In this document: positions 48,057 through 64,000 of the stretch, piece by piece | Numbering within the stretch: position 1 is the stretch's first letter | How the letters are laid out: each line of letters starts with the position of its first letter | Position numbers and translations under genes: made by a program | Origin: Leeuwenhoekiella aestuarii | GTDB taxonomy: Bacteria; Bacteroidota; Bacteroidia; Flavobacteriales; Flavobacteriaceae | Length of the DNA: 64,000 nt | Assembly (NCBI RefSeq): GCF_004104055.1 | Contig: NZ_QOVJ01000002.1 | Span: forward strand, 558,001 to 622,000 | Direction of reading: 5' to 3' | The notes under the pieces: generated by a model | What the model was told of the DNA's origin: nothing | Database searches by the model: none | What the model saw: the letters and a program-made list of their open reading frames with translations, nothing else

Positions 48057-48636
48057 AATACTGAAATTTGTTCCTATTAAATTACAAAAGCTCCATCAGC
48101 TATTTTTAGAATTGATCAGGTATCAATTAATTTTAAGAATAAAATAGCATAAGCCTTAGCTCAACGTTAAAACAATTAATAAATAGTGGAGTACGAACAC
48201 TCGCAGTATTATTCAAAAAGATATATTGAATAATTCTATTTTACATAATGTAAATTATAGAACAAAAGTGTAATTGTAATAATAGGTATTAGCCAACGTT
48301 ATCCTTAACTGGTTTTAGGATCGCATCAAACTGTCGCATATTACTAGTAAGTCATAGTGTTGTCATTTAATTCACTCCAAGTGCGGTTCTATTAATTATT
48401 ATCGTGAAATAATCTTTGAGTGACTGTTGCGATCTCTCAGGTGTTAAAAAGCTGCTTTGAACTGACTGCTCAAAATTTACGTATTCGGTACCAACGACCC
48501 GGAAATTTTCAAATACGCGATTCTCAGCGATTGGGAATTTACGTCATATTGAGTTCGTCGACGTGCAGTCGATATGTCACCATGACTTTTAATTTACTCC
48601 AGTTGCGGTTCTGCTTCTCTGAAAAATACTGAGCAT
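48057..48636. other. Gene-free AT-rich stretch with degenerate repeat fragments
   Basis: I see no credible gene. Degraded pieces of repeats found elsewhere are visible: near 48296-48340 a decayed form of the ATCCTGAA...TTCAGGAT hairpin also present at 61189, and 48477-48545 a piece matching 57500-57570 (shared core TTTTCAAATACGCGATTCTC). Confidence 0.7.
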
Positions 48637-48649
48637 GAATTGTGTTTCT

Positions 48650-48880
48650 GTTCATTTTTTACTCAGGAGTATTTATCGGACGGGACTTCGTGAATCTGCG
48701 ATTTCCATTGATGAAAAAACGAACCAAAAAAATCTAGGCTTACAGAAGCTTCTCTAAATTTTATGTTCGCTTCGCTGCATGCGCTTAACTCGGCCGATGG
48801 CCTCAAACAGAACCGCCTGCGACGCTACGCTACGCTCACTGCAAATTTGACGAGAAGCTTCTGGTATGCCGGTACTTACT
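48650..48880 (+). repeat. Composite repeat unit (variant head plus long-stem body)
   Basis: The unit starts with the long head GTTCATTTTTTACTCAGGAG, continues to GAAAAAACGAACC, and is followed by a body bounded by the 12-bp perfect inverted repeat CAGAAGCTTCTC (48743-48754) and GAGAAGCTTCTG (48852-48863). Between the arms is a GGCC-GAT-GGCC mini-hairpin. The same modules recur near 56.5-58.3 and 62.4-63.9 kb, always in this orientation. The short reading frames it contains are accidental. Confidence 0.8.
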
Positions 48881-48883
48881 TTT

Positions 48884-49155
48884 GAATAAACTTGAATTTC
48901 TAGTTGTGTTCTTGTTCTTTTGCCTTGATGCCAAAGAACCAAAAGATCAAGGCTGCAGTATACTTTGGAAACTATCACGGCTCACTCGCTATATTCTGGA
49001 AAGGAGGCTTACACCTTAAAATGCTTTGAATAAGTTTTAATAATTTATGTAACCAATAAGCCTTACTACTTCTACTCCAGAATATAAACGCTCCTCTCAC
49101 CTATAGTTTTAACCAAAGTCTACTGAGGCCATTTGCACATAAATTCATGTTTTAT
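48884..49155 (+). repeat. Direct duplication of about 270 bp, copy A
   Basis: This stretch recurs almost unchanged at 49342-49614. It includes a TTCTTTTGCCTTGATGCC head module and then TACTTTGGAAACTATCACGG and following sequence not seen elsewhere in the window. The offset is 458-459 bases. Copy A continues as ATTTTTCTTTAGACAGGA, the uninterrupted version of a site that carries an insertion in copy B. Confidence 0.85.
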
Positions 49156-49341
49156 TTTTCTTTAGACAGGAATAAATTCAATAGACACCTTACAGGACTT
49201 ATGTTATATGAACTCTTATTTATTGAAGGAATTATGATCTTTTGGTATAGCATAACACGGCAATGCGAGGTGTAATTGCTTAAAAATCGTGATGGCAGGT
49301 ACCAACACGCGATGCAATCGCGCGGAAACGGGGACATGTTT
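49156..49341. other. Spacer between the two duplicated copies
   Basis: No gene. It contains GTTATATGAACTCTTATT (49203-49220), which resembles the flank of the 95-bp element at 26384 but lacks the element. It also has an ACGCGATGCAATCGCG hairpin (near 49306-49321) related to one near 59679. Confidence 0.6.
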
Positions 49342-49614
49342 TGAATAAGTTGAATTTCTAGTTGTGTTTTTGTTCTTTTGCCTTGATGCCAAAGAACCAA
49401 AAGATCAAGGCTGCAGTATACTTTGGAAACTATCACGGCTCACTCGCTATTTTCTGGAAAGGAGGCTTACACCTTAAAATGCTTTGAATAAGTTTTAATA
49501 ATTTAAGTAACCAATAAAACCTTACTACTTCTACTCCAGAATATAAACGCTCCTCTCACCTATAGTTTTAACCAAAGTCTACTGAGGCCGTTTGCACATA
49601 AATTCATGTTTTAT
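49342..49614 (+). repeat. Direct duplication of about 270 bp, copy B
   Basis: Nearly identical to 48884-49155 with one length difference. The two copies share the head module, the CTCCAGAATATAAACGCTCC segment and the end CATAAATTCATGTTTTATT. Copy B is then broken by the 95-bp GGCGCC element and resumes with TTTTCTTAGACAGGA. Confidence 0.85.
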
Positions 49615-49615
49615 T

Positions 49616-49710
49616 GGCGCCGCCAAAGGGTTTAATACACCGAGGCTTGCCTCGAAATTGAAAATTTCTTTCTAATGAATGCCTCGTGGGCTTGCCCCGA
49701 GGTAGTTTAC
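49616..49710. mobile_element. 95-bp GGCGCC hairpin element, copy 2 (inserted)
   Basis: Same length and near-identical sequence to 26384-26478. Here it interrupts copy B of the local duplication: copy A reads GTTTTATTTTTCTTTAGACAGG without it, copy B reads GTTTTATT, the element, then TTTTCTTAGACAGG. This pair is a filled and an empty site, the best evidence in the window that the element has moved. No transposase or clear terminal inverted repeat is seen, so it would depend on an enzyme elsewhere. Confidence 0.7.
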
Positions 49711-49999
49711 TTTTCTTAGACAGGACTATTCTTTAAGGCTCTGCCGTAAATTTAACGAGAAGCTTCTGGTATGCCAGTACTGGCGTTTTAATGCGTATTC
49801 TGTTAAACTTGTAAATCACTCTTGACTATCTAATGCATTTCTCATTCGCTGAAAAAGCTCCATCGAAATGACTACTAGTACATAACATTATAACTAAAAA
49901 TTTAGTTTAATGAATAAGTACCTTATTATATAATGACTTTTTCTTATTACTGCGGAAAGGTATATATTCCCGATCACTCAGAACTTTGTAGTATATCTC
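49711..49999. other. Gene-free stretch downstream of the S41 peptidase
   Basis: It contains a fragment of the repeat body end (AAATTTAACGAGAAGCTTCTG near 49752) and, at about 49808-49870, a sequence related to 61443-61508 (CTTGTAAATCAC...CGAAATGAC). Otherwise AT-rich with no reading frame that looks genuine and no clear terminator for the peptidase gene. Confidence 0.6.
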
Positions 50000-51646
50000 C
50001 TAAATTTCGGCTAGAAGTTCTTGAGCCGCTACCCCTACTCCATCAGGATCTAAGGCTATAGCCTTGTGGAGTACTTGTTTAGCTTCCTTCTCATTACCAA
50101 TGGCGATATAGGATTCGCCGAGGTGTTTATAGGCGTTTGCAGAATCTGGAAAGAGGTTTAAAACCGTTGAAAATACCTGTATTGCTGCCTGAATTTGCGG
50201 TCCCCGCCCACTTTGCAGTAAAAGGTTTCCCTGTTTAAGGAGTTCGTTCTCAAAATCACAAAACGCATACAAAGGATCCTGAATCATTCTAGGAAGTTCT
50301 TCCGCTAATTTCTGGGTTTGTCCCGAGAAATACAGTTCTTTTACGTAATCCATGGGTCTCGGTTTGAAATTGGGTTCGTCAAAGGCTAATGCGGCTTCTA
50401 ATACCGGATCCTGGTTGGTGCGGTAGTCCTCAAAAGTCATCGCAACCGGAAGATTCGGAGCCATCCATTCGGCATTTTCTAAAGCCGGTTTATCCTGCCA
50501 CCATAGATAGGATACCGCGATCGAAACACCACTATTGGGCAGGGTTAGCGGACGATTATCGCCCCAAAAATTGAGGTTTTCTGCAGTAGGTTCTCCCACA
50601 AAAATAACATTCGTATAATTGTCGAGTTCGTTTACCAGATTTTGGCAGGCAGAAAAGGTGCGCTTGCCAATGATCACAAACAGTTTTCCTATCTGATCGA
50701 TGTGTTCCGTTTGAAGAAGTTCTTTGATAACGTCTTTGTTCAGGTAATTGTTTCCGCCACCGTTTAACCGTAAATCGATGATCAGTTTTTCGGCATCCTT
50801 CGCTACAACTTCCTCTAAAACACGCGTATAAAAATCTTTAGTAGACTCTCCAGGTTCATCCTGAATTCTGCTGTGCCTAACGTACATCGCCTGCTCATCG
50901 GCTAAAAATTCTTCAACATACACCTTATCCAGCTGCTGTAAATACAAGGGTGTGGTTTCCTGATCTCTTGCCGATAACCAATTGGCATCCGGAGTGACAA
51001 AACCCCGCTCTGTAGGTATGCTTTTTCCTTTTGGCAAGGCTGTAAAGGTCTGGTTAAAAACCCTGCCGTTTTTTTCCAGCTTAAGCGTTACGGTATGTTG
51101 AAGGCTTTGGGTTAGCTGCTGTGCGTGTAAAATTTCCGGATAGCGCAGGTTGTTGATCCCGTAGGCTTTAAAATACTGTGCATTTTCTGCCGGGACTGTG
51201 GGTTCAATGGCTTGTAGCGCTTCAGCAATGGGTGTGCCTGCTACGGCCAGCACCTTCGCTCCTATTGCTTCTGGATAATCTTTGTGCGTGCCCTCAATAT
51301 AAATTCCGTCCTCAAATGCATATAAATTGTACGGAAACTGCGCAAATTCTACCGGTTTTTGCCAAAAACTCAGGTGCGTATGACCGTATTTGAAGGATGC
51401 AACCAATCGGGAGATACCCACGATGATTTCGTGTTCCTGTAAATTCGGGATTTCCGCGTATAGGGCTTCCACTTCCCGGTCAAATGCTTCCGGGCTTGTT
51501 TTTACAAACAGCAAGGGATAGTCCCTGTGAATGGTATTCTGAAAAAACCGAAGGTCTTCCTGCCACTGCGTAGCACTATCGTTTTCCTGTGCAAACCCCT
51601 GAAGGGCCAGTAGTAGATTGAGTATAAAGAGCATTAATTTAACCAT
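50000..51646 (-). CDS. Exported S41-family peptidase with C-terminal TPR-like repeats
   Basis: From the ATG at 51646 the protein is 548 residues and begins with a clean signal peptide (ending F-A-Q, residue 20); the longer reading from 51736 hides it. The S41 (tail-specific protease) core has D-L-R-L-N-G-G-G near residue 291 and the predicted nucleophile S332 in R-T-F-S-A-C-Q. A GEPTAEN segment follows. No clear PDZ domain is seen. The last 60 residues hold a tetratricopeptide-like helix pair (A-Y-K-H-L-G-E-S-Y-I-A-I-G-N). It is divergent from a LuxR-type regulator across two matching palindromes, so probably controlled by it. Confidence 0.85.
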   Translation of the reverse strand: MVKLMLFILNLLLALQGFAQENDSATQWQEDLRFFQNTIHRDYPLLFVKTSPEAFDREVEALYAEIPNLQEHEIIVGISRLVASFKYGHTHLSFWQKPVEFAQFPYNLYAFEDGIYIEGTHKDYPEAIGAKVLAVAGTPIAEALQAIEPTVPAENAQYFKAYGINNLRYPEILHAQQLTQSLQHTVTLKLEKNGRVFNQTFTALPKGKSIPTERGFVTPDANWLSARDQETTPLYLQQLDKVYVEEFLADEQAMYVRHSRIQDEPGESTKDFYTRVLEEVVAKDAEKLIIDLRLNGGGNNYLNKDVIKELLQTEHIDQIGKLFVIIGKRTFSACQNLVNELDNYTNVIFVGEPTAENLNFWGDNRPLTLPNSGVSIAVSYLWWQDKPALENAEWMAPNLPVAMTFEDYRTNQDPVLEAALAFDEPNFKPRPMDYVKELYFSGQTQKLAEELPRMIQDPLYAFCDFENELLKQGNLLLQSGRGPQIQAAIQVFSTVLNLFPDSANAYKHLGESYIAIGNEKEAKQVLHKAIALDPDGVGVAAQELLAEI

Positions 51647-51796
51647 CGTTATTTGGATTGATGAATGTAACGTAAAATTGCCAAGGGGTAATCCCAAAAA
51701 GATATTAAAAGGAAACCGCTTTTGATCCCTCAGCAAGTCTGACCGTATTGAAATCTCGATTATGGGGTAAAGTTATGATTATCAATAGCTTATTTT

Positions 51797-51876
51797 ACTA
51801 CCCGCACGAGTAGTTTTTAAAAATAACCGGTTGTATCCGAAACAGTTAGATCGTTAAAACTACCCTCAGGAGTAGT
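51797..51876. promoter_or_regulatory. Pair of 18-bp palindromic sites ACTACCCnnnnGAGTAGT
   Basis: ACTACCCGCACGAGTAGT (51797-51814) and ACTACCCTCAGGAGTAGT (51859-51876) are identical outside the four central bases. The arms are self-complementary at six of seven positions. Their centres are 62 bases apart, about six helical turns. They lie between the divergent S41 peptidase (start 51646) and LuxR regulator (start 51902), the second site ending 26 bases before the regulator start. Binding by the adjacent LuxR-type protein is the simplest reading. Confidence 0.7.
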
Positions 51877-51901
51877 GTGTAGAAAACTTATATTTGTTAG
51901 T

Positions 51902-52660
51902 ATGGCAGATATTCCTTCTTTTTTCTCGCTTAAAAACAGCATCAACACGCTAACGGATACCGATAAACGGCAAACCGAAAATTATCTTGAGGTCGTAGAA
52001 GCCTTTGCCAGAACCACCTATCAAAGTGTTTATGTGATTGATTATGCGCAAAAAGGATTTGAATATGTATCGGATAATCCGTTGTTTTTATGCGGAAATA
52101 CAGCAGCGGAAGTCCGGGAAATGGGGTATGATTTTTATTTTAAGTACGTGCCCGAAGCCGATCTCGAACTGCTCTTAAAAATAAATACTGTTGGGTTTGA
52201 TTTTTACGAAACCAAGCCTGTTGCAGAACGGAAGGACTACAGCATTTCGTATGATTTTCATTTAAAAACGGAAGCCAGAAAAACCCTGTTAATCAACCAA
52301 AACCTCACGCCCCTCTTTTTAACCGAAAGCGGAAAAATCTGGAAAGCCATTTGTTTTGTCTCCCTGTCTACGCAACAGCAGGCCGGTAATATCACGATTA
52401 CCCAAAAAGGCAGTTCTGAAAAACTAATCTATGATCTAGCAACGGATTGCTGGAAGGCAGTCCAAAAGATAGAACTCACCCAACGGGAACAGGAAATCCT
52501 GCACTACGCGATGAGAGGCTACGCGATTACTGAAATTGCAGAACAGCTTTATATTTCATCCAATACGGTAAAATTTCACCGTAAAAAGTTGTTTGAAAAG
52601 TTGGGTGTGGCGACGATCTATGAAGCGATTTCGTATGCTACGGTTAATAAATTGATTTGA
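51902..52660 (+). CDS. LuxR-type HTH regulator with PAS-like sensor domain
   Basis: From the ATG at 51902 the protein is 252 residues. The C-terminal HTH (about residues 186-250) shows L-T-Q-R-E-Q-E-I-L, I-T-E-I-A-E-Q-L-Y-I-S-S-N-T-V-K-F-H and L-F-E-K-L-G-V, the classic GerE/LuxR fold. The N-terminal 150 residues (Y-V-I-D-Y, F-E-Y-V-S-D-N-P-L-F-L-C-G) look PAS-like. There is no receiver domain, so it is not a two-component regulator. A GTG at 51875 is possible but overlaps the second palindrome. A TATATTTG box ends six bases before the ATG, too close for a normal leader. A decayed copy of its 3' end lies at 61029. Confidence 0.88.
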   Translation: MADIPSFFSLKNSINTLTDTDKRQTENYLEVVEAFARTTYQSVYVIDYAQKGFEYVSDNPLFLCGNTAAEVREMGYDFYFKYVPEADLELLLKINTVGFDFYETKPVAERKDYSISYDFHLKTEARKTLLINQNLTPLFLTESGKIWKAICFVSLSTQQQAGNITITQKGSSEKLIYDLATDCWKAVQKIELTQREQEILHYAMRGYAITEIAEQLYISSNTVKFHRKKLFEKLGVATIYEAISYATVNKLI

Positions 52661-52809
52661 GTTTGGAGCTCAGCAGATTCTTGAAAAATTGCTATATCAA
52701 TCGTTTCTATATTTAGCTATAATATTAAGCCTTTATAATTCCTATATAAATATCAACTTAAGTATTTCTCAAGATTTAATAGTGTATGAATCAGATTTTA
52801 AGAATCTGT

Positions 52810-55800
52810 TTACTCTTCAGCTTTAGCTTTTGGTTTCTGTAATTTGGTATTGTCAAAAATATTTTCAATAATATGTTTATCAATTGCTTCAACATTCAAC
52901 TTCAGGTTAAACATTTCTGATAAATCTTGATTGTATTTTCCCTGTGAAGCATTAATGATTTGAATGATTTTATCATCATAGGTTTCAATTATCTGATGAA
53001 ATTTTTCACTATCATCATTTAGATGGAGAATTATTTTTCTACATACGCTATCTGCTTTGGTCATAGTTATGGTCGAATATTCAAATATGCCAAGTGCAAA
53101 GAACTTTATTTGCTCTATGCTCAATTCTGGGTAGTCTATTAGTAAATCCAAAATATCGTCAAAAATCCTACTTAACTTTCTCTTATCTAAATAATCTTCG
53201 TTAAGTAAATGATTCCAAAAATCTTCATTTTCTGGAATAGCTACTTCATTTTTAGCTATTGAAGTAAAATATTCATCATATGCTTCCATGAAAATTTTAC
53301 TTCTTGTAATTTTCTTTTCTAATAAATCATTCTCAATTAGCCCAGAAAAAGCAAAATTAAAATTAGACTCAGTATTAAAATTCTCTAACCAAACATCTTT
53401 ACTACTCTCTTTAAATTGAATAATTAATAAGTCATAAATAAATCTTATTGAGAAAAACTTAAGATTCTCTTCATCAAAAGTTTCCTTCAAAATATCAATA
53501 CTTAAATTTAAAACGGGAGATATTTCTTCAACTTTAAAATGCTCTTTCCATCTATCAAATTGAGTTAAAAAAACTTTGAAATCATCTTTAAATAATTGTG
53601 ACTTTACTTTATCCAAGTTCTCAAATACCCATTTATAAGTAATAGATTGATTAAACCCGAAATAATCTGTAGTAAGAATCTTAATGACTTCATTTACTAA
53701 AGGATAAGCCCTACCCTTATCAATTCGGATTTTTAATAAATCACCATAGTCAACATAGTGCTGTATGATTTCAGCAACATTAGAAGCATTATCAATTTTA
53801 TTAAGTTCTTTTGTTAATGTAGGGCTTTGTGGTGCATTATTCATCAAATGGGCTATCTGATTAGCTACAATGTCAAAATAAGGATTATCGGTTTTAGCTC
53901 CATTGCTATTTAGAAAATTATTGCCTATCGCTTGAGGTATTAATTTAAATTTACTCTTACCATTAAGAACTTTATTAATCTCGATTAATTTTGATATTTT
54001 TTTTACATCAGTATATCCAACCGCCTTTAATTGAGCATCAATTGTTTCTTGAATTTTATTAAACTTAAAAGATTTATCTGTATAAATTAAATATTCTATT
54101 ACGTGTATATAAGTATACAATTCTTCTACTACGCCATTTTTATGATTAATAAAATATTCATTAAGCTCATCTGAATCAGCAAATATTTTCATATCAACAT
54201 ATGTACAATCTCCTTTTTTAAATAATCTATTTAAATCATCTAAATACTCCACAAAGTCTTTTGGAGAAAACTTCACTTTATTTATTGTAGGTTTAAATTT
54301 TTTAGATTCGCTGTTTAAAAATTTAATTAACTTATAAATTGTATCATAATATTTACTGCTATCTGATGATTTTATGAACTCATTTTGAGACTCATTAACA
54401 ATTTTGTCTGCTAGTCTTTTTGCCGTATTTCTTGAAGTGTTTATAATTATACTTCTATGCCAATCTAAAAGTTTTACAAATTCTCCTTTAGGTCTTTTGT
54501 CAATATTATTAGCAAATCTTTCCCAATATGATTTTAGTGCTTGTGCAGATACAACATCTTTAACTTCTTCAAATATTTTGGCTGTGTTTTCAGGTCGTGA
54601 ATTTGAAAAACTAAACTTGTTGACTGTATTTTCAAAATAAGTTTTAAACTCACTATGTTTTTTTACATCTTTTAGAGCTTCGAAATTGGCTTTAAAGAAT
54701 ATGTCATCAATGCTATTTGTTAATAGCACTTCACTTGATTTTTCTTTATCAACATTATAAACTATAGCCGCTAAATTTTCTTCTAGTTCAGATTCAGCTT
54801 GAAACATATGTTTCTCTTCCTTTAAAAAATGTTTGCCCGCAATAGAAATCAATGGATTATTTAAAATTTCTTTTTTTCTTAAACTAAATAAGGCCAAATA
54901 CTTTATATCAATTGAGCTATTATGTTGTAAGTATAAAGAGACGAGATTGTTGATGAATATTATTATATCACGCGGTCTTTTAGTATTTATGTCCGTGATA
55001 AGTTCATATAAAGAAGAAATAAATTCTATATCATTATCATTAATAATGTCATGAAAAGCTTCTTTAAATTTTAATTCAAAGAACTTCTTCCAATCTGATA
55101 AAACAGGGGGGGAAATTCTAAAAATTGTTGAAAACGTTTTTCCTATAAAATTATCCACTTTATTATCATCACTTGCATCAAAATGTTTAGATAAATGTTC
55201 TTTGTCATAAGGGATTATTACCCAAACATTATCAATTTTTTCTTCAGCAAAAAAAGTGTGTATTGATGACCAAAGGGATAAAACTTTATCACTCTTTGAT
55301 AATCTATCCATATTATCAAACACAATTATTAAACCATCTGATTCTAAATCATCTGTAATATTTTCAAAATATTCTTTAAAACTCTTTACAGATGGTTCAT
55401 CTTCAAGTGTATGTTCTAGTTCTTCTGTTTCTAGATCTGAACCACTAAAAATATACAAGAGCCTTTTAAGCCTTTCTTTATAATCAAAATCCTTAGTTTC
55501 TGGATTACCATCAAAAGCTTGATATTCTTTTCTCAATTCCACCAAACCCCAAACAAAAACAATGGTTGGCAATAGGTACTTTGATAAAAATAATTTTAAG
55601 TAGTGTAAGTTGTATTTTGGAACAAAATTGCTACTAATTAAAAAATCATCGTAGAGTATATTCAAAAATGAAAACATTAAAATAGAAGCCATTATTAGAA
55701 TCCAATAAAACTTGATTTTTGGAAATTTAGTTGTGTTCTTTGTAGCTTTTTTTGCGAGTAGTTTGTTTAACTCTTTTGTCCAATCTACATTACCTTTAAA

Positions 55801-56121
55801 CTTTTTTCCTCTTTTTAATGAAGAAATTAATTCTTCTAAAAAGGTGCGCCTCGTTAAATCTTCTTGATGACCCCATGCATCATAAGTAAAAAAGAAATAG
55901 TCTGAACTTATTTCATTAAATTTTTTGTTTATAATACTTACAACATTGGATTTTCCTGAACCCCATTTTCCTTCAATACCAACAACATTATTGGGTAAGG
56001 ATTTTTCTTTAATTAATTCGAAAATTGTGTTAGAAATCTTTTCATGAGATTTGCCTTCAAATAAATCTTTTCCAGATGGAGAGCTAGAAATGTAGTTTGG
56101 TTTTTTGGATGGTTCACTCAT
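52810..56121 (-). CDS. KAP-type P-loop NTPase with membrane segments
   Basis: A 1103-residue protein from the ATG at 56121 (the TTG at 56136 is not needed). Walker A is G-I-E-G-K-W-G-S-G-K-S with K57, and Walker B lies in L-I-I-V-F-D-N-M-D-R-L (D269, D272). Two hydrophobic segments (about residues 138-157 and 176-196) are inserted between them, the hallmark of KAP NTPases, which are membrane-associated STAND-like ATPases. The long C-terminal part is helical and unassigned. Base composition is far more AT-rich than the flanks and the gene sits alone between repeat blocks, so recent acquisition is likely. Relatives occur in phage-defence contexts; that role here is inference. Confidence 0.88.
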   Translation of the reverse strand: MSEPSKKPNYISSSPSGKDLFEGKSHEKISNTIFELIKEKSLPNNVVGIEGKWGSGKSNVVSIINKKFNEISSDYFFFTYDAWGHQEDLTRRTFLEELISSLKRGKKFKGNVDWTKELNKLLAKKATKNTTKFPKIKFYWILIMASILMFSFLNILYDDFLISSNFVPKYNLHYLKLFLSKYLLPTIVFVWGLVELRKEYQAFDGNPETKDFDYKERLKRLLYIFSGSDLETEELEHTLEDEPSVKSFKEYFENITDDLESDGLIIVFDNMDRLSKSDKVLSLWSSIHTFFAEEKIDNVWVIIPYDKEHLSKHFDASDDNKVDNFIGKTFSTIFRISPPVLSDWKKFFELKFKEAFHDIINDNDIEFISSLYELITDINTKRPRDIIIFINNLVSLYLQHNSSIDIKYLALFSLRKKEILNNPLISIAGKHFLKEEKHMFQAESELEENLAAIVYNVDKEKSSEVLLTNSIDDIFFKANFEALKDVKKHSEFKTYFENTVNKFSFSNSRPENTAKIFEEVKDVVSAQALKSYWERFANNIDKRPKGEFVKLLDWHRSIIINTSRNTAKRLADKIVNESQNEFIKSSDSSKYYDTIYKLIKFLNSESKKFKPTINKVKFSPKDFVEYLDDLNRLFKKGDCTYVDMKIFADSDELNEYFINHKNGVVEELYTYIHVIEYLIYTDKSFKFNKIQETIDAQLKAVGYTDVKKISKLIEINKVLNGKSKFKLIPQAIGNNFLNSNGAKTDNPYFDIVANQIAHLMNNAPQSPTLTKELNKIDNASNVAEIIQHYVDYGDLLKIRIDKGRAYPLVNEVIKILTTDYFGFNQSITYKWVFENLDKVKSQLFKDDFKVFLTQFDRWKEHFKVEEISPVLNLSIDILKETFDEENLKFFSIRFIYDLLIIQFKESSKDVWLENFNTESNFNFAFSGLIENDLLEKKITRSKIFMEAYDEYFTSIAKNEVAIPENEDFWNHLLNEDYLDKRKLSRIFDDILDLLIDYPELSIEQIKFFALGIFEYSTITMTKADSVCRKIILHLNDDSEKFHQIIETYDDKIIQIINASQGKYNQDLSEMFNLKLNVEAIDKHIIENIFDNTKLQKPKAKAEE

Positions 56122-56376
56122 AAAATTTAATTTCAAAACGTTAAGATTTTATTAAACCAAGAGTTGTACCATTTTATAAATTCCTTTTTTTTAAATAGAT
56201 AACTGACAGGTTTAGTAAAGAAAAGTGTAAATATGACAATAGGTCACTTTGCTAATCAAGCCACGCACATTACTCTTCAATTCTACTTCGTCGTTTAGAA
56301 AGTATTCTATATGCATTGTAGTAAAAGCTTCTTGAAATATTTGTTTAAAGAAAATTTAGCGGTAATATTCGTTCCG
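56122..56376. other. Upstream region of the KAP NTPase
   Basis: AT-rich, no gene seen. It presumably carries the promoter of the NTPase gene, but no convincing TTG/TAnnTTTG pair was found. Confidence 0.5.
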
Positions 56377-56442
56377 CTAATACTCCCTCCTATCCTCCTT
56401 TTCCGTCCATTGGTTAAAAGCTTTGATGACGGTTTGTGGAGT
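56377..56442 (-). pseudogene. Duplicated 3' fragment of guaD
   Basis: On the minus strand this reads P-Q-T-V-I-K-A-F-N-Q-W-T-E-K-E-D-R-R-E-Y-stop. The intact guanine deaminase at 61856-62326 ends P-E-I-A-I-K-A-F-K-E-W-T-E-K-E-D-R-R-E-Y-stop. About 66 bases match, with substitutions, then similarity ends. There is no start or catalytic part, so it is a remnant of a duplication or of a recombination that removed the rest. Confidence 0.85.
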
Positions 56443-56532
56443 AAAGATAGGTGTTAACTGGGAGATTGTGAGACTTGAGATATTAGATAGATGTTATATT
56501 ATATCTGAAAAATACGGACCATGAATTGTGTT

Positions 56533-57440
56533 TCTGTTCTTTTGCCTTGATGCTAAAGAACCAAAAAATCAAGGCTTACAGCAGCTTCTCTAAATTTTAT
56601 GTTCGCTTCGCTGCATGCGCTTAACTCGGCCACGGGCCTCAAACAGAACCGCCTGCTACGCTACGCTCCCTGTAAATTTAACGAGAACCTGCTGATAGGC
56701 CGGTGCTGGTGTACGGATGCGATCCTGAAACAAGTTCAGGATGACTTATACCTGCGGAGTTTTTCTAGTTCTTCAGTATAGCTAGAAACACCCGTTAAAA
56801 TTTTCGAAGTATTCAAAATTTGAAATGCTTTTGATAGTTCTGTTCTTTTGCCTTGATGCTAAAGAACCAAAAGATCAAGGCTTACAGTAGCTTCTCTAAA
56901 TTTTATGCTCACTTCGCTGCATGCGCTTAACTCGGCCACGGGCCTCAAACAGAACCGCCTGCTACGCTACGCTCCCTGTAAATTTAACGAGAACCTGCTG
57001 ATAGGCCGGTGCTGGTGTACGGATGCGATCCTGAAACAAGTTCAGGATGACTTATACCTGCGGAGTTTTTCTAGTTCTTCAGTATAGCTAGAAACACCCG
57101 TTAAAATTTTCGAAGTATTCAAAATTTGAAATGCTTTTGATAGTTCTGTTCTTTTGCCTTGATGCTAAAGAACCAAAAGATCAAGGCTTACAGTAGCTTC
57201 TCTAAATTTTATGCTCACTTCGCTGCATGCGCTTAACTCGGCCACGGGCCTCAAACAGAACCGCCTGCTACGCTACGCTCCCTGTAAATTTAACGAGAAC
57301 CTGCTGATAGGCCGGTGCTGGTGTACGGATGCGATCCTGAAACAAGTTCAGGATGACTTATACCTGCGGAGTTTTTCTAGTTCTTCAGTATAGCATGAAG
57401 TACCTGTTAAGAATTTTTGAAGTATTCAAAATTTGAAGTG
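56533..57440 (+). repeat. Nearly three tandem copies of a 306-bp composite repeat
   Basis: The period is exactly 306 bases (for example CAGtAGCTTCTC arms at 56579, 56885 and 57191). Each unit has a GTTCTTTTGCCTTGATGC head, a body bounded by inverted arms (left 56579-56590, right 56683-56694 and equivalents), an ATCCTGAA-ACAAG-TTCAGGAT hairpin, and an AATTTTCGAA...TTCAAAATT hairpin. Units two and three look identical until about 57390, indicating recent amplification. The 60-codon reading frame repeated in each unit is not credible as a gene. Confidence 0.9.
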
Positions 57441-57454
57441 CTTTTAATATTTCT

Positions 57455-58330
57455 GTTCTTTTGCCTTGATGCCAAAGAACCAAAAGATCAAGGCTGCTTA
57501 TAATTTGCGTATTCCGTACAATGGGCCCGGAATTTTTCAAATACGCGATTCTCAGCGATTGGGATTTATCGGTTTTTGTCTCTAGCCTTAAGCTATTAAT
57601 AAATGAGAAACTTAAACTTCTATTGATTGTAATGTTCATTTTTTACTCAGGAGTATTTATTGGACGGGACTTCGTGAATCTGCGATTTCCATCGATGAAA
57701 AAACGAACCAAAAAAACTAGGCTTATTTTTACATCCTTGAAAACTACGCAAAGCCTTTATCGTGGGGATGGCAAACCGCTGCGCTAGGCCATCCTCCACT
57801 GCCCCACGCTGCAGGCTTCGCTTGTTTTACTACGGATCTAAAAAGTAGGCCGTTACTGACGTTTTAATTAGCATTCTTTAAATTTTATTCTTTGGTCTTC
57901 TTTTTCTTCAGTATAGCAATAAGTACCCGTTAAGAATTTTTCGAAGTATTCAAAATTTGAAGTGCTATTTATACTTCTGTTCATTTTTTCCATTGATGAT
58001 AAAACGAACCAAAAAAATCTAGGCTTATTTTTACATCCTTGAAAACTACGCAAAGCCTTTATCGTGCGGATGGCAAACCGCTGCGCTAGGCCATCCTCCA
58101 CTGACCCGCGCTGCAGGCTTCGCTTGTTTTACTACGGATCTAAAAAGTAGGCCGTTACTGACGTTTTAATTAGCATTCTTCAAATTTTATTCTTTGGTCT
58201 TCTTTTTTTTCAGTATAGCATTAAGTACCTGTTAAAAATTTTCGAAGTATTCAAAATTTGAAGTGCTTTCAATATTTCTGTTCTTTTGCCTTGATGCTAA
58301 AGAACCAAAAAATCAAGGCTGCTTATAATT
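57455..58330 (+). repeat. Second block of composite repeats with an alternative body
   Basis: Two further units with a spacing of about 303 bases. They use the other body module, starting near TACATCCTTGAAAACTACGC (57731 and 58033) and ending GGATCTAAAAAGTAGGCCGT. The first has the long head (with ACTCAGGAGTATTTATTGGA), the second a short form of the same head lacking that insert (57980-58025). A third head of the TTCTTTTGCC kind starts near 58280. This shows heads and bodies combining freely. Confidence 0.85.
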
Positions 58331-58647
58331 TTGGAAACAATTAACGGCTCGCTCCACTACATTTAGGGGATTTACTCAAAAAATTGATATTGATTGAATT
58401 ATCGAGTATTATCGAACCAAACATAGCGTTTTGGAGCATTTGGTTCGTGTATCTGGGGAGCGGTATGCCTGACGTATCATGGAGGTGTCATGGGCTTTGC
58501 ATGGGCGTATCCCCGGGTGAAGGTCGGGTGAACCGTGGGTAAACCTCGGGTTAACTACGGGTGAACCCTATGGATTACAGGATATTCTTGAGAATATATT
58601 TAGCTGTTCTTAGACAAGCCTGATACAGCCGCCGCTTTATGAAGCAC
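58331..58647. other. Gene-free stretch with imperfect short tandem repeats
   Basis: No gene. The right half (58513-58572) has five imperfect copies of a GGGTGAACC-like word at 10-12 base spacing. It lies just past the 3' end of the orphan gene at 58648-59487. Confidence 0.65.
58513..58572. repeat. Imperfect 10-12 bp tandem repeat (GGGTGAACC-like)
   Basis: Successive words CGGGTGAAGGT, CGGGTGAACCGT, GGGTAAACCT, CGGGTTAACTAC, GGGTGAACCCT. The copies vary in the second half but keep GGGT-x-AA. Each word is partly self-complementary (GGGT / ACCC), so adjacent copies could pair. Too degenerate for a CRISPR or a standard satellite. Confidence 0.65.
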
Positions 58648-59487
58648 TTAGTAGATCGCGAGGCATTGCATCGCATTATGTGCCGGGAACGCTTCTAATA
58701 CACCATTGTTTTCCTGACCAAAACGAATGCCCAACCATACGGTATGCGCTGTTTTTTTGGCCACGGTTTTCATCGAAAACATAGGATTTGGAGCTTCCAG
58801 ATAGGCCCAAGAATATTGATACATACTGTAAAAGGTTAGATTATATTCTATGGGTTGTGGAATGTTATCAATAGCTATAGGCAGTGTGGGCATACGTAAT
58901 ACTTCCAGCGCTTCAGGATCTAATTCTGAAGTGTATTGCTGCTGCTTCCGGTCATAGGTAAACGGCATCAAATTGTAGCGGATCATCAACAATTCAAAAT
59001 GTGTAGCGTGCTCGGGTGCTACTATATGCTCTTTTTTTAGACCGGAAAAATCAACCAACACGCTTCTGGCATTTTTATTTAGTTTGGGTTGAAAACGCAG
59101 TCTATCGCTTAATGTATTGTTTTCATTCAATTCTAAACCTACCAGTTTTTCCGGGGCATTACAGGCATTGATACTACGCTCACCCTTAACTCCCCTACCC
59201 GCTTTTACCAATTGCAAACACCGACTTGTGAGTCGGCTATTGAAGCTATGATCTTTAAATTCGTGTACGTACGGCAACAGCCCCATACGAATGGCTTTGG
59301 CATAGGAAGAAGCCCCCCCGAATTCTTGATTGTTTTTACGAACCGCCTTGTAGCGCGGGTCGTTGTTGATACGTTCTTTGTTGGGCGGCGTCGCTTTTCT
59401 ACATACCCATTTTCCATTGAGGGTGTAATAGGTAATCCCGTCAATCGTTCCTTTAAATGCGCCGATGTTGTTTGTTGGTTTTGCCAT
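58648..59487 (-). CDS. Conserved-looking protein of unknown function, 279 residues
   Basis: I do not recognise a named family. The N-terminus M-A-K-P-T-N-N-I-G-A-F-K-G-T-I-D-G-I-T-Y-Y resembles a type of orphan protein I associate with several Bacteroidota, but I cannot confirm it. It is basic in the first 100 residues (N-K-E-R-I-N-N-D-P-R-Y, R-L-T-S-R-C) and more mixed after, with no signal peptide, membrane helix or catalytic motif. G+C is higher than in the KAP gene. It stands alone next to a repeat block and an unusual short-repeat tract. Confidence 0.7.
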   Translation of the reverse strand: MAKPTNNIGAFKGTIDGITYYTLNGKWVCRKATPPNKERINNDPRYKAVRKNNQEFGGASSYAKAIRMGLLPYVHEFKDHSFNSRLTSRCLQLVKAGRGVKGERSINACNAPEKLVGLELNENNTLSDRLRFQPKLNKNARSVLVDFSGLKKEHIVAPEHATHFELLMIRYNLMPFTYDRKQQQYTSELDPEALEVLRMPTLPIAIDNIPQPIEYNLTFYSMYQYSWAYLEAPNPMFSMKTVAKKTAHTVWLGIRFGQENNGVLEAFPAHNAMQCLAIY

Positions 59488-59849
59488 GACCTTTTGTTTT
59501 AAAGCGCTAAGATATCGTCAAATACGGCAAAAGTCAAGTGTAATGCATTGAACTTAAGTTCGTTATCGACATTTTTAGGAATTTAGCAATAGGAATGCCA
59601 AAACTTTTGAGAAGATGTGATTTATACTTGGGTTAAATTATTGATACTGTATTTGTTGTATATGTTATTGTTGGCACACGCGATACAATCGCGGAGCAAA
59701 AAGAGTACTGATTCTTATTCACAAACGGATGCAAATTCTATATTCACGGAGCTGGCAAAGCGGGAACATAGGCTTCTATTTTATTTACTTTTTTTAAGCA
59801 AAAAGGCTCCGTTTTGATGCGGAGCCTTTTTCAAGTAAACGATCTCGGG
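59488..59849. other. Gene-free interval
   Basis: Contains the upstream region of the 279-residue gene, a CACGCGATACAATCGCGG hairpin-forming piece near 59679 related to one near 49306, and a terminator at the right. A 66-codon plus-strand frame (59617-59817) ends inside the terminator stem and is not accepted as a gene. Confidence 0.6.
59800..59833. terminator. Terminator downstream of the PEGA lipoprotein gene
   Basis: A 12-bp stem (59800-59811 with 59820-59831) with 8-base loop, A-tract and T-tract arms; usable on both strands. It lies 18 bases beyond the PEGA gene stop on the minus strand. Confidence 0.88.
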
Positions 59850-60317
59850 TTAAGGTTTGCGTTGCAGCTGCCCTACCTGTTCCCAGTTGGGATCTACTTC
59901 CATACTGATGGTAAGGTAAAGTGTACCGTTATCCATCCTATAGGAAGTTCCTTCTTTAGGCTGTCTGTCAATTTCTTCAGGTTTTAGCTGATACATTGCC
60001 CCGGTAATCGGGTCTACCACCAAACCAATAAGACCACCGATCAACACGTTTCCCAAATACCAGGCGTTGAACTTCTTTTTTAGGGTCGTGGTATACGGCT
60101 CATAGCCTTCCAACTCCAAAAGCAGCGTGTATTCCTGATTGCGTTTCAGCTTTTGTTGAAGGGGTGTGGGCCCCATATCAATCTCGTTGATCGCTACTCG
60201 GGCTTCTTTGGGGTACGAATTGATGTGAACATCCTGTCTGGATCCGGAAATGATGGTTGCGCAACCGCTAAGCGCTAAGGCTAAGCCTAAGGTTGCTGTT
60301 TTTAAATGGGTATTCAA
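59850..60317 (-). CDS. PEGA-domain lipoprotein
   Basis: A 155-residue predicted lipoprotein with lipobox L-S-G-C at residue 19. A PEGA-type beta domain follows (V-H-I-N-S-Y-P-K-E-A-R-V-A-I-N, M-G-P-T-P-L, Y-T-L-L-L-E-L-E-G-Y-E-P-Y), and then a glycine-rich hydrophobic segment (about residues 89-108) that could be a membrane hairpin. PEGA domains are surface-layer-type beta structures of unclear role. It is the second gene of a pair with the lipoprotein at 60325; seven bases separate them. Confidence 0.85.
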   Translation of the reverse strand: MNTHLKTATLGLALALSGCATIISGSRQDVHINSYPKEARVAINEIDMGPTPLQQKLKRNQEYTLLLELEGYEPYTTTLKKKFNAWYLGNVLIGGLIGLVVDPITGAMYQLKPEEIDRQPKEGTSYRMDNGTLYLTISMEVDPNWEQVGQLQRKP

Positions 60318-60324
60318 GGTTTAA

Positions 60325-60717
60325 TCAATCTAGTTTTAGTTCGTACTGTTTGAGTTTAGCAACATCGCCGTTATAGCGGTAGAGGTCTATTTGGAGTCGG
60401 TAACACGAACTCCATAGATCCGGTTTTTTGGTATCGGTTACTTTTACGATGTTGGCTCCGTTTTTTCTAGCCTCGATCCGGGCTTTGTTCAACAAGCTAT
60501 TGAAGCTGCAATCTGTAGAAAAACCGGAATCCTGAAAGCGCAAGCTGCCGACTTTAATAAGGTCGTCCGGCAGCTCGTGTTCCACGTCTAAAAAGGCTAC
60601 AGGTTCATCAGAGGTTAAGGTGGTTAGTGGATTAGACACGTGGGAAGCCAGTTTTGGACTACACCCGGTGATCCCGAATGTAATTACCACACTAAAAAAT
60701 AGAAAAGCATACCGCAT
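60325..60717 (-). CDS. Small lipoprotein, first gene of a two-gene unit
   Basis: A 130-residue predicted lipoprotein. The signal has a lipobox I-T-G-C with cysteine at residue 19. The mature part includes G-S-L-R-F-Q-D-S-G-F-S-T-D-C and a helix-beta segment A-R-I-E-A-R-K-N-G-A-N-I-V-K-V, the pattern of small outer-membrane lipoproteins related to DUF4156/RcsF-like folds; that comparison is tentative. Two cysteines (in T-D-C and S-S-C) could form a disulfide. Co-transcribed with the PEGA lipoprotein. Confidence 0.78.
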   Translation of the reverse strand: MRYAFLFFSVVITFGITGCSPKLASHVSNPLTTLTSDEPVAFLDVEHELPDDLIKVGSLRFQDSGFSTDCSFNSLLNKARIEARKNGANIVKVTDTKKPDLWSSCYRLQIDLYRYNGDVAKLKQYELKLD

Positions 60718-61028
60718 AAAGGATGTTGTTAAGGTATTGATTTACAGAAACGTGACCGCTGTTTAGGAGGTCCTATTTGCGGACGAATATATATAATAAT
60801 CCAATTCGTTTTTGAAAAAAATATGACGGTAATAAAAAAATAATAACCGAATAACCGTTAGATTATCAGGTATTTATACATTTTAAAGAAAAAATGTTCC
60901 ACACCTCAAGTAGTATGAGGGCTTTTGTGGATGTCAGAAGGGAGCCATTAGAAGTATTCTCCTCATCTCCAGCCCTTCTCCCAAACTCCTTCCTTAAGTA
61001 AGGGGTGGAAGTTGGTTATTTAACTGTA
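60718..61028. other. Gene-free upstream region
   Basis: Very AT-rich near 60790-60890 and then a mixed stretch. It should hold the promoter of the two lipoprotein genes. I see a short CCTTCCTTAAGTAAGGGG inverted segment near 60989 but nothing I can assign. Confidence 0.5.
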
Positions 61029-61139
61029 CTATATAGTACTAATACGTTGAAATTTCACCGTTACAAACTCTTTGAAAAGTTGGGCGTTGCGACGATATCT
61101 GAAGCGATTTTGAATGCTAGGGTGGATAAATTGATTTGA
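61029..61139 (+). pseudogene. Duplicated 3' fragment of the LuxR-type regulator
   Basis: The frame reads L-Y-S-T-N-T-L-K-F-H-R-Y-K-L-F-E-K-L-G-V-stop-free through to V-D-K-L-I-stop, closely matching the HTH end of the intact regulator at 51902-52660. Similarity continues some 35 bases past the stop codon (GTTTaaAGgTCAGCtGATTC), so it is a DNA duplication and not convergence. Everything upstream of the recognition helix is missing. Confidence 0.88.
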
Positions 61140-61423
61140 GTTTAAAGGTCAGCTGATTCTAAAAATTGGCTATTAATGGCTTTAGGTTATCCTGAACTGG
61201 TTTCAGGATCACACCAAATTGTGGAGAAGAGAACTTAAAAAAACAGCAAATGAAACTATTGCTTTTACCAAAGCAAAGTAACAAAATGCTGACCATTATG
61301 GAACAAAAGTGTTATTAGGAAAATAGGCGCTGCCGTAACTTTTCGATACAAATTATATTGCGTTAGCACTTCGTAAAATTCACTCAAAGTATGTCTCTGT
61401 TTTAATCTAACGTCATTTCAACC
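61140..61423. other. Gene-free interval with a palindromic hairpin
   Basis: Contains ATCCTGAA-CTGG-TTTCAGGAT (61189-61209), the same hairpin type found in each 306-bp unit. No credible gene. Similar to 48296-48340. Confidence 0.6.
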
Positions 61424-61849
61424 TTAGGGATAAATCACATACGCTTGTAAATCACGCTTGACTGTCTGATGCGATTTCTCAGTCGTTGAAAAAATTCCTT
61501 CGAAATGACTGATATCAATTTCAAAATACCAGGCTACAAACGACAGTATTAAGAAAATAATTGGGAGTAAACTGATCGTCGTCCAAAGCAGGTTTTTTCT
61601 CCAGTTGGTTTCCTCTCCAACAATCAAAACCGAATTCAATAAAGACCCTAAAAATAATCCGAAATAGAAAATAATCGATAAAAACTGGCCGTATTGATAA
61701 ATCCACCTTAGGTTTTGGTTTAATCTAAAGCCTTCTGTTATTAGGTCTAATAAGAAACTAGAGAAAAAAAGAATACAAATTAGAATAGCAAATCTTTTAG
61801 TCCAATTTAATTGCTTTAAAAACGCAGCTACATTTTTTAACGTAATCAT
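61424..61849 (-). CDS. Membrane protein whose 3' end lies in a dispersed repeat
   Basis: A 141-residue protein with three or four hydrophobic segments (about residues 19-38, 52-72, 88-108). No family recognised. The last 25 codons (61424-61508) overlap sequence related to the non-coding repeat at 49808-49870, so the original C-terminus was probably replaced or truncated by it. It begins six bases after the guaD stop, so it may be transcribed with guaD. Confidence 0.6.
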   Translation of the reverse strand: MITLKNVAAFLKQLNWTKRFAILICILFFSSFLLDLITEGFRLNQNLRWIYQYGQFLSIIFYFGLFLGSLLNSVLIVGEETNWRKNLLWTTISLLPIIFLILSFVAWYFEIDISHFEGIFSTTEKSHQTVKRDLQAYVIYP

Positions 61850-61855
61850 CCTATC

Positions 61856-62326
61856 CTAATACTCCCTCCTATCCTCCTTTTCCGTCCATTCTTTAAAAGC
61901 TTTGATGGCGATTTCGGGAGCGAGTTGTTCAAAGGGGATGCTGCGTTCGGCATAGGGCAACGGGATTTCTTTATAGATAAAGGCATCGTCAAAACCAATG
62001 TTTGCGGCATCGGTCTGCGTACTGCCGTAATAGACCTTATCGAGACGGGCCCAGTAGATCGCGCCCAGGCACATCGGGCAGGGTTCGCAGGAGGTATAAA
62101 TGGTACAACCGGTTAATTGAAACGAATCGAGATTTTTACAGGCATCGCGTATGGCCGTGACTTCGGCGTGCGCCGTGGGATCATTGGTCGAGGTTACTTT
62201 GTTGTTGCCTTTGCCTATGATCTTTCCGTCCTTCACGATCACACAGCCAAAGGGTCCGCCCTCGTTGTTTTGCATTCCGTTTAATGCTGTGTTTACGGCT
62301 TCCTGCATAAAGTTTTTATGATCCAT
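61856..62326 (-). CDS. guaD: Guanine deaminase (GuaD-type nucleoside deaminase)
   Basis: Converts guanine to xanthine in purine catabolism. The 156-residue length equals the known short GuaD enzymes. Zinc and catalytic residues are H53 and E55 (T-A-H-A-E) and C83, C86 (E-P-C-P-M-C). The C-terminal part G-F-D-D-A-F-I-Y-K-E-I and E-R-S-I-P-F-E-Q matches GuaD rather than tRNA adenosine deaminase. Two degraded relatives lie in this window (46095 and 56377). The gene is flanked by repeats on its upstream side. Confidence 0.9.
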   Translation of the reverse strand: MDHKNFMQEAVNTALNGMQNNEGGPFGCVIVKDGKIIGKGNNKVTSTNDPTAHAEVTAIRDACKNLDSFQLTGCTIYTSCEPCPMCLGAIYWARLDKVYYGSTQTDAANIGFDDAFIYKEIPLPYAERSIPFEQLAPEIAIKAFKEWTEKEDRREY

Positions 62327-62374
62327 TTTTAATATTGTTTTGAGTAAATATACAGGTAAATTGAAGATTGTAAG

Positions 62375-63880
62375 TTCTATTGATGCTTCTGTTCATTTTT
62401 TACTCAGGAATATCTATTAAACGGGACTTCGTGAATCTGCGATTTCCATTGATGAAAAAACGAACCAAAAAAATCTAGGCTTACAGAAGCTTCTCTAAAT
62501 TTTTTGTTCACTACGCTGCATGCGCTTAACTCGGCCGCTGGCCTCAGACAGAACCGCCTGCTACGCTACGTTCACTGCAAATTTAACGAGAACCTTCTGA
62601 TAGGCCGGTGCTGACGTTTGAACAGGCATTCTTTAAAATAGATAAATTCGGTTTTATATATATTCCTGGTTGTTGTGAGTTTTTATTCTTTGGTCTTCTT
62701 TTTCTTCAGTATAGCAAGAAGTACCCGTTAAGAATTTTCGAAGTATTCAAAATTTGAAATGCTATTGATATTTCCGTTCTTTTGCCTTGATGCCAAAGAA
62801 CCAAAAGATCAAGGCTTACAGAAGCTTCTCTAAATTTTTTGTTCACTCCGCTGCATGCGCTTAACTCGGCCGCTGGTCTCAGACAGAACCGCCTGCTACA
62901 CTACGTTCACTGTAAATTTGACGAGAACCTTCTGATATGCCGGTACTGAAGTTTGAACAGGCTTTTTTTCAAATAGATAAATTCGGTTTTATATATATTC
63001 CTGGTTGTTGTGAGTTTTAATATTTAGTCTTCTTTTTCTTCAGTATAGCAAGGAGTACCCGTTAAGAATTTTCGAAGTATTCAAAATTTGAAATGCTATT
63101 GATATTTCCGTTCTTTTGCCTTGATGCCAAAGAACCAAAAGATCAAGGCTTACAGAATGTTCTCTAAATTTTTTATTCACTCCGCTGCATGCGTTTAACT
63201 CGGCCCCTGGCCTCAAACAGAACCGCCTGCTACGCTACGTTCACTGCAAATTTAACGCGAACCTTCTGATAGGCCGTTACTGGCGTTTGAACAGGCGTTC
63301 TTCGAATAGATAAATTCGGTTTTATATATATTCCTGGTTATTATGAGTTTTAATATTTAGTCTTCTTTTTCTTCAGTATAGCAAGAAGTACCCGTTAAGA
63401 ATTTTCGAAGTATTCAAAATTTGACGAGAAGCTTCTGATATGCCGTTACTGACATTTGAACAGGCATTCTTTAAAATAGATAAATTCGGTTTTATATATA
63501 TTCCTGGTTGTTGTGAGTTTTAATATTTAGTCTTCTTTTTCCTCAGTATAGCAAGAAGTACCCATTAAAAATTTTCGAAGTATTCAAAATTTGAAATGCT
63601 ATTGATACTTCCGTTCATTTTTTACTCAGGAATATCTATTAAACGGGACTTCGTGAATCTGCGATTTCCATTGATGAAAAAACGAACCAAAAAAATCTAG
63701 GCTTTTTTTTACATCCTTGAAAACTACGCAAAGCCTTTATCGTGCGGATGGCAAACCGCTGCGTCTGTGCATTCCTCTCGTTCCACTCGTCGGATGCAGG
63801 CCTCCTCTACCCCGCGCTGCAGACTTCACATGTTTTACTACGGATCTAAAAAGTATGCCGTTACTGACGTTTGAATAAGC
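62375..63880 (+). repeat. Third block of composite repeats
   Basis: At least four units. Heads: long form at 62387 and 63614, TTCTTTTGCC form at 62777 and 63111 (333 bases apart). Bodies: inverted-arm type with arms 62484-62495/62588-62599, 62819-62830/62933-62944 and 63153-63164/63257-63268; the alternative TACATCC body at about 63710. A tail TTCTTCAGTATAGCAAGAAG with AATTTTCGAA...TTCAAAATT is repeated near 62706, 63040, 63373 and 63543; near 63420 a unit has lost head and left arm. All are in the plus orientation. Confidence 0.85.
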
Positions 63881-63887
63881 ATTCGCC

Positions 63888-64000
63888 TTAATAATACATT
63901 CTAAAATCTAAGACTTTACATGCGGTATAGTGCTTTTGATGCAGCTCTTCTACCACCTGAAACAGATCGTCATCTTCATTAAACAGGTGAAAGAAAACTT
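63888..64000 (-). CDS. C-terminal end of a gene running off the right edge
   Basis: On the minus strand an open frame enters at the window edge and ends with TAA at 63890-63888. The last 36 residues read V-F-F-H-L-F-N-E-D-D-D-L-F-Q-V-V-E-E and then H-Q-K-H-Y-T-A-C-K-V-L-D-F-R-M-Y-Y. The composition looks like a real protein end. Too short to assign. Confidence 0.6.
   Translation of the reverse strand, partial: VFFHLFNEDDDLFQVVEELHQKHYTACKVLDFRMYY

Follow-up and report, generated by a model that had tools for sequence, protein, structure and literature searches.

Three blocks of repeats in a stretch of 64,000 nt from Leeuwenhoekiella aestuarii (contig NZ_QOVJ01000002.1, positions 558,001 to 622,000; this whole stretch is called the window below) consist of copies of a non-coding DNA element that can fold and is widespread in Bacteroidota. 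Each unit contains a head (family I), a hairpin body and, in two of the blocks, a tail. On balance, these units probably represent a non-autonomous, structure-forming DNA repeat, widespread in Bacteroidota, whose folded head is recognised by a protein encoded elsewhere.

Distribution of the head

The short 40-nt head was found in 124 of 392 Bacteroidota genomes, from 58 of 179 genera, by a covariance model built from 12 head variants; 16 candidates were scored per genome, so the copy numbers are lower bounds. The exact 40-nt pattern occurs in 64 stretches of the genome collection, from taxa that include Leeuwenhoekiella, Elizabethkingia, Parabacteroides, Flavobacterium, Cytophaga, Taibaiella, Niabella and Balneolaceae, and also in one Calditrichaceae metagenome-assembled genome (possibly misbinned). 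The head is present in one of 72,556 plasmid records and in none of 50,697 phage records (the share of Bacteroidota in these records was not counted), and an exact scan of viral contigs yielded two stretches with it. On IMG/VR contig L190 there are two heads (4505-4541 and 6980-7016), 2.5 kb apart, among open reading frames (ORFs) that look phage-like by eye.

Ten strings of the element sequence and keyword terms had no match in print, within the open-access papers and terms searched. Rfam gave no matches in the window at the gathering score, none at E<=1 in 48000-64000, and nothing where the heads lie in 7 further loci.

Structure and covariation of the head

The short head has the layout A-B-A'-linker-B', with hairpin S1 (GTTCTTTTG/CAAAAGAAC), an A-rich linker, and a second pairing S2 between the hairpin loop CCTTGAT and ATCAAGG. 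Family I heads start with GTTC, TTTC, GTAC, TTAC, ATTC or CTTC. The covariation set comprised 62 distinct heads (150 of 166 matches were aligned), the alignment being fitted to S1 and not to S2. Of the 930 head cells, 98.8% are paired; both sides are changed in 66 of them, and a one-sided change (U-G) is observed in one. The covariation score is 0.209, compared to 0.039 in shuffled alignments (0/500 reach the observed value) and at most 0.042 when slid. Covariation is confined to pairs 1-26 (GC, UA, CG, AU), 3-24 and 9-18 of S1 and to pair 16-33 (UA, AU, CG) of S2. Two stricter measures, the pairs changed and the pair types, which shared ancestry inflates least, exceed shuffles in the 12-row head alignment (1/500 each) but not in the alignment of 62 heads.

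The paired changes support an H-type pseudoknot in the short head, and the rarity of the one-sided U-G change fits DNA better than RNA. Since G-U steps are scarce, the data suggest that the structure is kept at the DNA level, via selection or arm-to-arm copying.

Folding of the bodies

The bodies are long imperfect hairpins, with the closing pair GGC/GCC in most of them and GAC/GTC in some. Family I bodies are mostly 125-180 nt long. The 115 unique bodies formed 32 clusters (right ends were chosen by script), and 31 representatives of at most 205 nt were folded, with 30 shuffles each. Their lengths may cluster near 125-136, 146-148, 155-164 and 172-180. The mean z-score is -4.6 for the plus strand and -4.5 for the minus strand, with z < -2 in 28/31 and 29/31 representatives, respectively. 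In 8 of the 31 bodies, the internal-loop motifs CTAAA..AACTYG..CTCARAC/TCGGACA..ACG occur in this order, as they do in no body in any of 200 shuffles.

RNA pseudoknots typically show an A-B-A'-B' layout and a linker rich in A, and the repeat could be transcribed into a structured RNA (either a small RNA or an element copied via RNA, like a short interspersed nuclear element), with the pseudoknot acting in RNA. The covariation of S2 agrees with this explanation, as does the strand preference of the bodies: the minus strand is more stable in 27/31 and richer in G-U pairs (126/1549 vs 81/1478 on the plus strand), and the plus-strand single mismatches are A-C in seven cases and G-T in one (an uncontrolled count). 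However, the strand difference is 5.6 kcal/mol against 4.8 in shuffles, so base composition accounts for most of the minus-strand advantage, and the RNA-strand idea was rejected. An RNA element is further opposed by the single one-sided change among the 930 head cells, the absence of Rfam matches, the lack of a clear link with the orientation of flanking genes (22 vs 37, p=0.07), and the absence of the reverse-transcriptase family RVT_1 from the L. aestuarii genome and from 9/13 genus genomes overall. We consider it improbable.

Family II and inverted pairs

In Leeuwenhoekiella, family I adjoins a second head, family II (GTTCATTTTCTTTG...CAAAGAAAACGAACCAAAAGAAA). All 81 neighbour pairs of the two families within 700 bp are inverted (20 in the L. 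aestuarii genome, 21 at orthologous sites, 40 at named loci), though these locus sets overlap between and within themselves, and the pairs are not fully independent. Neighbouring family I heads have the same orientation in 23 cases and the opposite one in 9; neighbouring family II heads have the same orientation in all 7 cases (same genus and distance). The heads of both families have GTTC(A)TTTT-like starts and about 20 nt upstream in common. Outside the genus, a single II-like head was found, by a narrow pattern, in 95 loci holding 121 family I heads.

These pairs bear on another explanation, namely that the copies are miniature inverted-repeat transposable elements (MITEs, here derivatives of a transposon by internal deletion) or decayed ends of a transposon with terminal inverted repeats, families I and II being its two ends. 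MITEs are non-coding and have inverted ends. The invariably inverted pairs of the genus, the similar starts and the common upstream nucleotides agree with this explanation. Still, family I mostly stands alone outside the genus, no coding version was seen, the largest cluster of shared genes covers 7/112 loci, and no target duplication was found for family I alone. Transposon ends are an unlikely explanation.

The tail aligns to the inner part of family II bodies in 3/14 copies (scores 103, 98 and 48; letter-shuffle maxima 38, 37 and 32). Because of this alignment, the units in blocks 2 and 3 appear to be tandemly duplicated composites of a family I arm and a truncated family II arm (the tail).

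The two families differ in relation to the intrastrand-triplex (ITxF) pattern of Holder et al. 2015 (PMC4666352), which consists of three blocks with a stem of 6-15 nt (one mismatch if longer than 7) and loops of 1-6 nt. By our re-implementation of two triplex classes, which recovered the positive control, 3/3 variants of the family II head have this pattern (a stem of 9 containing one mismatch, and two loops of 6). None of 4 family I variants has it with loops of at most 6, and 1/4 (stem 6) has it if loops may reach 9.

Organization of units in the window

By direct reading, a repeat search and a scripted position check, the window contains three blocks of units, 300-335 bp long and mostly spaced at this distance. 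There are 14 family I heads, and all features given here are on the plus strand. The original prediction, that units of 300-330 bp lie in three blocks in the same orientation, is thereby confirmed as an observation. Since neighbouring block 2 units are tandem duplicates, the shared orientation within the window is not independent evidence.

The heads have three forms: short (9/14), long with an insert, and long-type without the insert. Bodies A, B and C start inside the last GGC of the head and have complementary arms closed by GGCC or TGCC; body B, like body A, is an inverted repeat. Two body types had been predicted; A and B are real, and with C and D there are four in the window. Heads and the bodies directly behind them were located by script (except body D), and those also read directly are indicated.

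Block 1 starts with a long head with insert (48650-48739, also read), followed by body A with inverted arms (48737-48870, also read; GGC common to the head). Two units with body C come next: a short head with the pseudoknot motif (48914-48953) and a long hairpin GGCTGCAG...CTGAGGCC (48951-49130, also read; homologous bodies were folded), and then a short head (49372-49411) and a body (49409-49589, also found by the repeat search) with 98% identity to the preceding copy over matched stretches. A 3' fragment of body A occupies 49746-49782.

Block 2 contains a short head (56536-56575), body A (56573-56701) and a tail (56769-56836; by alignment, akin to the interior of certain family II bodies). 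Two tandem copies, also found by the repeat search, have 99% and 91% identity to this unit, with short heads 56842-56881 and 57148-57187, bodies A 56879-57007 and 57185-57313, and tails 57075-57142 and 57381-57453. They are followed by a short head (57455-57494) with body D (57492-57567; repeat-search family D14, repeated at 48466-48539). Next are a long head with insert (57634-57722, also read), body B (57720-57851) and a tail (57893-57969). The head at 57979-58024 (also read) is of the long type and lacks the insert, as had been predicted for 57980; body B (58022-58153) and a tail (58195-58267) come behind it. The short head at 58280-58319 (also read) is the start of a decayed C-type unit.

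In block 3, a long head with insert (62391-62480, also read) is followed by body A (62478-62606) and a tail (62691-62774, within the stretch aligned to family II bodies). Two further units have short heads (62776-62815 and 63110-63149), bodies A (62813-62941 and 63147-63275) and tails (63027-63108 and 63360-63424). Behind them are a 3' piece of body A that is joined to a tail (63417-63452), another tail (63530-63607), a long head with insert (63613-63702, also read) and a copy of body B that is expanded by a short stretch inside it (63700-63859, also read). A tail had been predicted for each unit; tails were found in blocks 2 and 3, and none was detected in block 1.

Module combinations in the genome

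The L. aestuarii genome (4.43 Mb, 30 contigs) contains several clusters of copies, on contigs C1, C2, C4 and C8, in both orientations. With a block 3 unit as the query, other copies match with E-values down to 1e-136 (the query's own site excluded), which is far beyond chance. In 13 of the 17 stretches fetched from this genome there are 40 family I heads. Short heads are combined with body A in 11 cases, with C in two and with D in one; long heads with insert, with A in two and with B in two; long-type heads without insert, with A in four and with B in ten. No body was assigned for 8/40 heads. With these seven combinations, module exchange is therefore real, and the predicted interchange of heads and bodies holds for at least seven head-body pairs.

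The end of contig C4 (G000 C4:350977-351052) and the start of C8 (C8:4-132) are both inside body B, so the two contigs may be neighbours linked by an array.

Turnover, insertion sites and gene context

The copies are partly lineage-specific, and several arrays are missing at the orthologous sites of relatives. Block 1 is absent from L. marinoflava. At one intergenic site, the flanks are 97% and 93% identical between L. aestuarii and genome G007, with the DNA between them hardly shared; the flanks of G002 and G005 at this site are 93-94% identical, and the DNA between is likewise almost wholly different. In all four genomes, the family I and II heads face outward. In G107, from another genus, the counterpart of about 1.47 kb with four heads measures 35-170 bp in 14 relatives among the matches listed, 11 of which were read directly. 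For a one-head site of 687 bp, four relatives have headless stretches of 59, 59, 86 and 279 bp; four further relatives, judged by length, have 0.8-2 kb there. As the G107 arrays repeat the element plus spacer, multiplication is largely tandem.

Such turnover might need no dedicated enzyme: the structures would provoke replication slippage, template switching and recombination, and the repeat would spread passively, as has been proposed for intrastrand-triplex repeats (PMC4666352). Tandem copies, replacement of whole intergenic regions and paired changes limited to Watson-Crick pairs fit template switching between arms. On the other hand, a process driven by structure alone could hardly be expected to preserve one 40-nt sequence across classes, and arrival at new sites is left unexplained. 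We rate passive spread as unlikely.

Nearly all evaluated copies are intergenic: by crude ORF calls, 59 loci have two callable flanking genes, and one further locus overlaps an ORF of at least 200 aa. The flanking pairs are tandem in 42 of the 59 cases, divergent in 12 and convergent in 5. The gene on the 5' side is on the same strand as the element in 22 cases and on the opposite strand in 37 (p=0.07); for the 3' side the numbers are 29 and 30. Given no clear orientation link in these calls, a role as 3'-UTR (untranslated region), terminator or riboswitch was rejected. At position -1 of the elements T accounts for 77%, and the share of G rounds to zero.

In 10 single-contig genomes, with arrays collapsed, 39 sites are oriented with the replication fork and 30 against it (p=0.34); the uncollapsed ratio 62:40 (p=0.04) is inflated by arrays. 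In this analysis dnaA was taken as the origin, and five genome lengths were rounded. Replication-strand insertion was rejected in the absence of significant bias. The original prediction of non-random orientation was not supported, given the collapsed counts and both orientations elsewhere in the genome. Its interpretation, that the units are a system rather than debris, is partly supported: the modules are real, they are not coding debris and the head covaries, but orientation on the genome scale is not clearly non-random.

Search for an associated enzyme

Y1_Tnp is found in 7/13 genus genomes at E<=0.001 (six over the cut-off); it has no match in 6/13, namely L. aestuarii, G002, G003, G008, G010 and G011. 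None of the eight fetched Y1 contexts contains a family I head. In context L180, a family II head and a tail lie about 1 kb from the Y1 gene. RVT_1 is present in 4/13 genus genomes and absent from 9/13, including that of L. aestuarii; the two proteins read are presumably, by their look, of the group II intron type. In context L186, element fragments lie about 2 kb from the reverse-transcriptase gene. Linkage to Y1 or reverse transcriptase was rejected; both are absent from the L. aestuarii genome, and none of the eight Y1 contexts has a family I head.

These results concern the possibility that the repeat is an element similar to repetitive extragenic palindromes (REP) or REP doublets forming hairpins (REPIN), moved by a Y1 (TnpA-REP) transposase. 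Like REP, the copies are small folded intergenic repeats that form inverted pairs, and a Bacteroidetes TnpA-REP subclass, 2.6, is on record, reported with atypical structures (PMC6006769). Against this possibility, Y1_Tnp is absent from L. aestuarii and five other genus genomes, family I heads are found in 0/8 contexts, and both contexts that were read have another, GCGATGCAATCGC-like repeat around the Y1 gene instead of family I. Moreover, family I heads have no GTAG/GGAG or CGTC foot of REP, and the fork bias is not significant after collapsing. A Y1-moved element is very unlikely. A GCGATGCAATCGC palindrome is present in the window (49309-49321), and similar repeats surround the Y1 transposase genes of G005 and G007; perhaps this repeat is the REP of that Y1 enzyme.

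The largest cluster of shared genes near the heads, an HTH family, covers 7/112 loci (30 clusters were listed), and a shared neighbour gene was rejected as a link. A related XRE-type HTH gene (domain name assigned by eye) is present in L048, L062, L068, L076, L079, L106 and L107, from several genera.

Other repeats and genes in the window

Block 1 also encloses a further, distinct repeat of ~105 bp (49609-49712), with 86-96% identity at many sites in the genus genomes searched. Downstream of each block 2 body A (at 56721, 57027 and 57333) there is a GATCCTGAAACAAGTTCAGGATGAC palindrome, which we take to be another dispersed repeat. In G010, the flanks of positions ~52665-61458 (8.8 kb) are only 68 bp apart; this stretch, which may be an island, carries block 2 and a KAP NTPase gene, which PADLOC matched in part to QatA and PifA. 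Two genes of the cytidine/deoxycytidylate deaminase family are located at 46095-46403 (apparently truncated) and 61856-62326.

Discussion

Several observations weigh against a structure-forming repeat with a recognised head. All head covariation is carried by four pairs, and in the large alignment pairs changed and pair types are not above shuffles (222/500 and 313/500). The window's own copies fold weakly: z is -2.22 for the short head and 0.04 to 0.58 for the long heads, 0.05 and -1.96 for body A, and -1.79 for body B. The tail has no match, by letter shuffles, to the other 11/14 family II copies, and the sole I-II pair found outside the genus has the same orientation. At the intergenic site described above, G004 and G006 have part of the intergenic DNA in common. 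No target duplication or exact insertion ends were found (flank matches of at least 5 nt in 2/115 vs ~4 in shuffled flanks), in a test of family I alone with GGCC as the right end, which would miss the ends of a composite. Finally, no mobilising enzyme was found in the searches described above.

For a DNA repeat recognised by its fold, the folded single strand, exposed in replication, repair or transcription, would be what is recognised, and the near-invariant head would be the site at which a widespread protein, encoded outside the element, recognises it. The bodies would drift while their folding is retained. Copies would spread into chromosomal intergenic sites and then be duplicated in tandem. 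In Leeuwenhoekiella the element usually forms an inverted two-arm unit, in which family II is the other arm. Blocks 2 and 3 may be tandemly multiplied composites, the II arm being cut down to the tail, and block 1 (C bodies, no tail) a related but different array. A more specific version, which we hold only tentatively, is that a chromosome-encoded protein present throughout the phylum binds or cuts the folded pseudoknot head, in an undescribed mobility or chromosome-organisation system that combines a fixed head with freely evolving hairpin bodies and, in one genus, an inverted partner.

Among known systems, intrastrand-triplex repeats are the closest in behaviour. Those described by Holder et al. 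2015 are intergenic, consist of a Y-arm, loop, R-arm and second R-tract, and have no strand bias; close inverted pairs in E. coli always combine type A with type B, and the neighbouring intergenic DNA is unusually strain-variable (PMC4666352). The elements studied here resemble these PIT and TM_ECO repeats in intergenic location and absence of strand bias (both for family I), inverted two-type pairs (here in one genus only) and variable surroundings. TM_ECO, by contrast, is a proteobacterial repeat rich in G/C; family I has the S2 pairing in addition, together with a body that mostly measures 125-180 nt, and it is family II and not family I that fits the triplex pattern (PMC4666352). The main text of that paper contains no word starting with "Bacteroid" or "Flavobacter", though it mentions Flexibacter litoralis for its richness in A/T triplexes.

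REP, REPIN and bacterial interspersed mosaic elements are likewise small intergenic folded repeats with inverted pairs, mosaics and high copy numbers (PMC6006769; see also PMC3116915), but here the GTAG/CGTC foot is absent, Y1 was not found in several element-rich genomes, and the elements are larger and modular. With MITEs, the elements share the non-coding character, apparently inverted ends (in the genus) and lineage-specific arrays; they differ in that neither target duplication (for family I alone) nor a parent transposon was found and in that they mostly lack the inverted partner outside the genus. We therefore file the element with structure-forming intergenic repeats, as a variant new to that group.

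The repeats mark sites of intergenic DNA exchange between close species, as well as ends of draft contigs. A non-coding stretch of 40 nt that is nearly letter-identical over many families of the phylum, and nearly absent from phage and plasmid records, seems to need a recogniser; the covariance model, the copy lists and the compensatory positions make this question testable.

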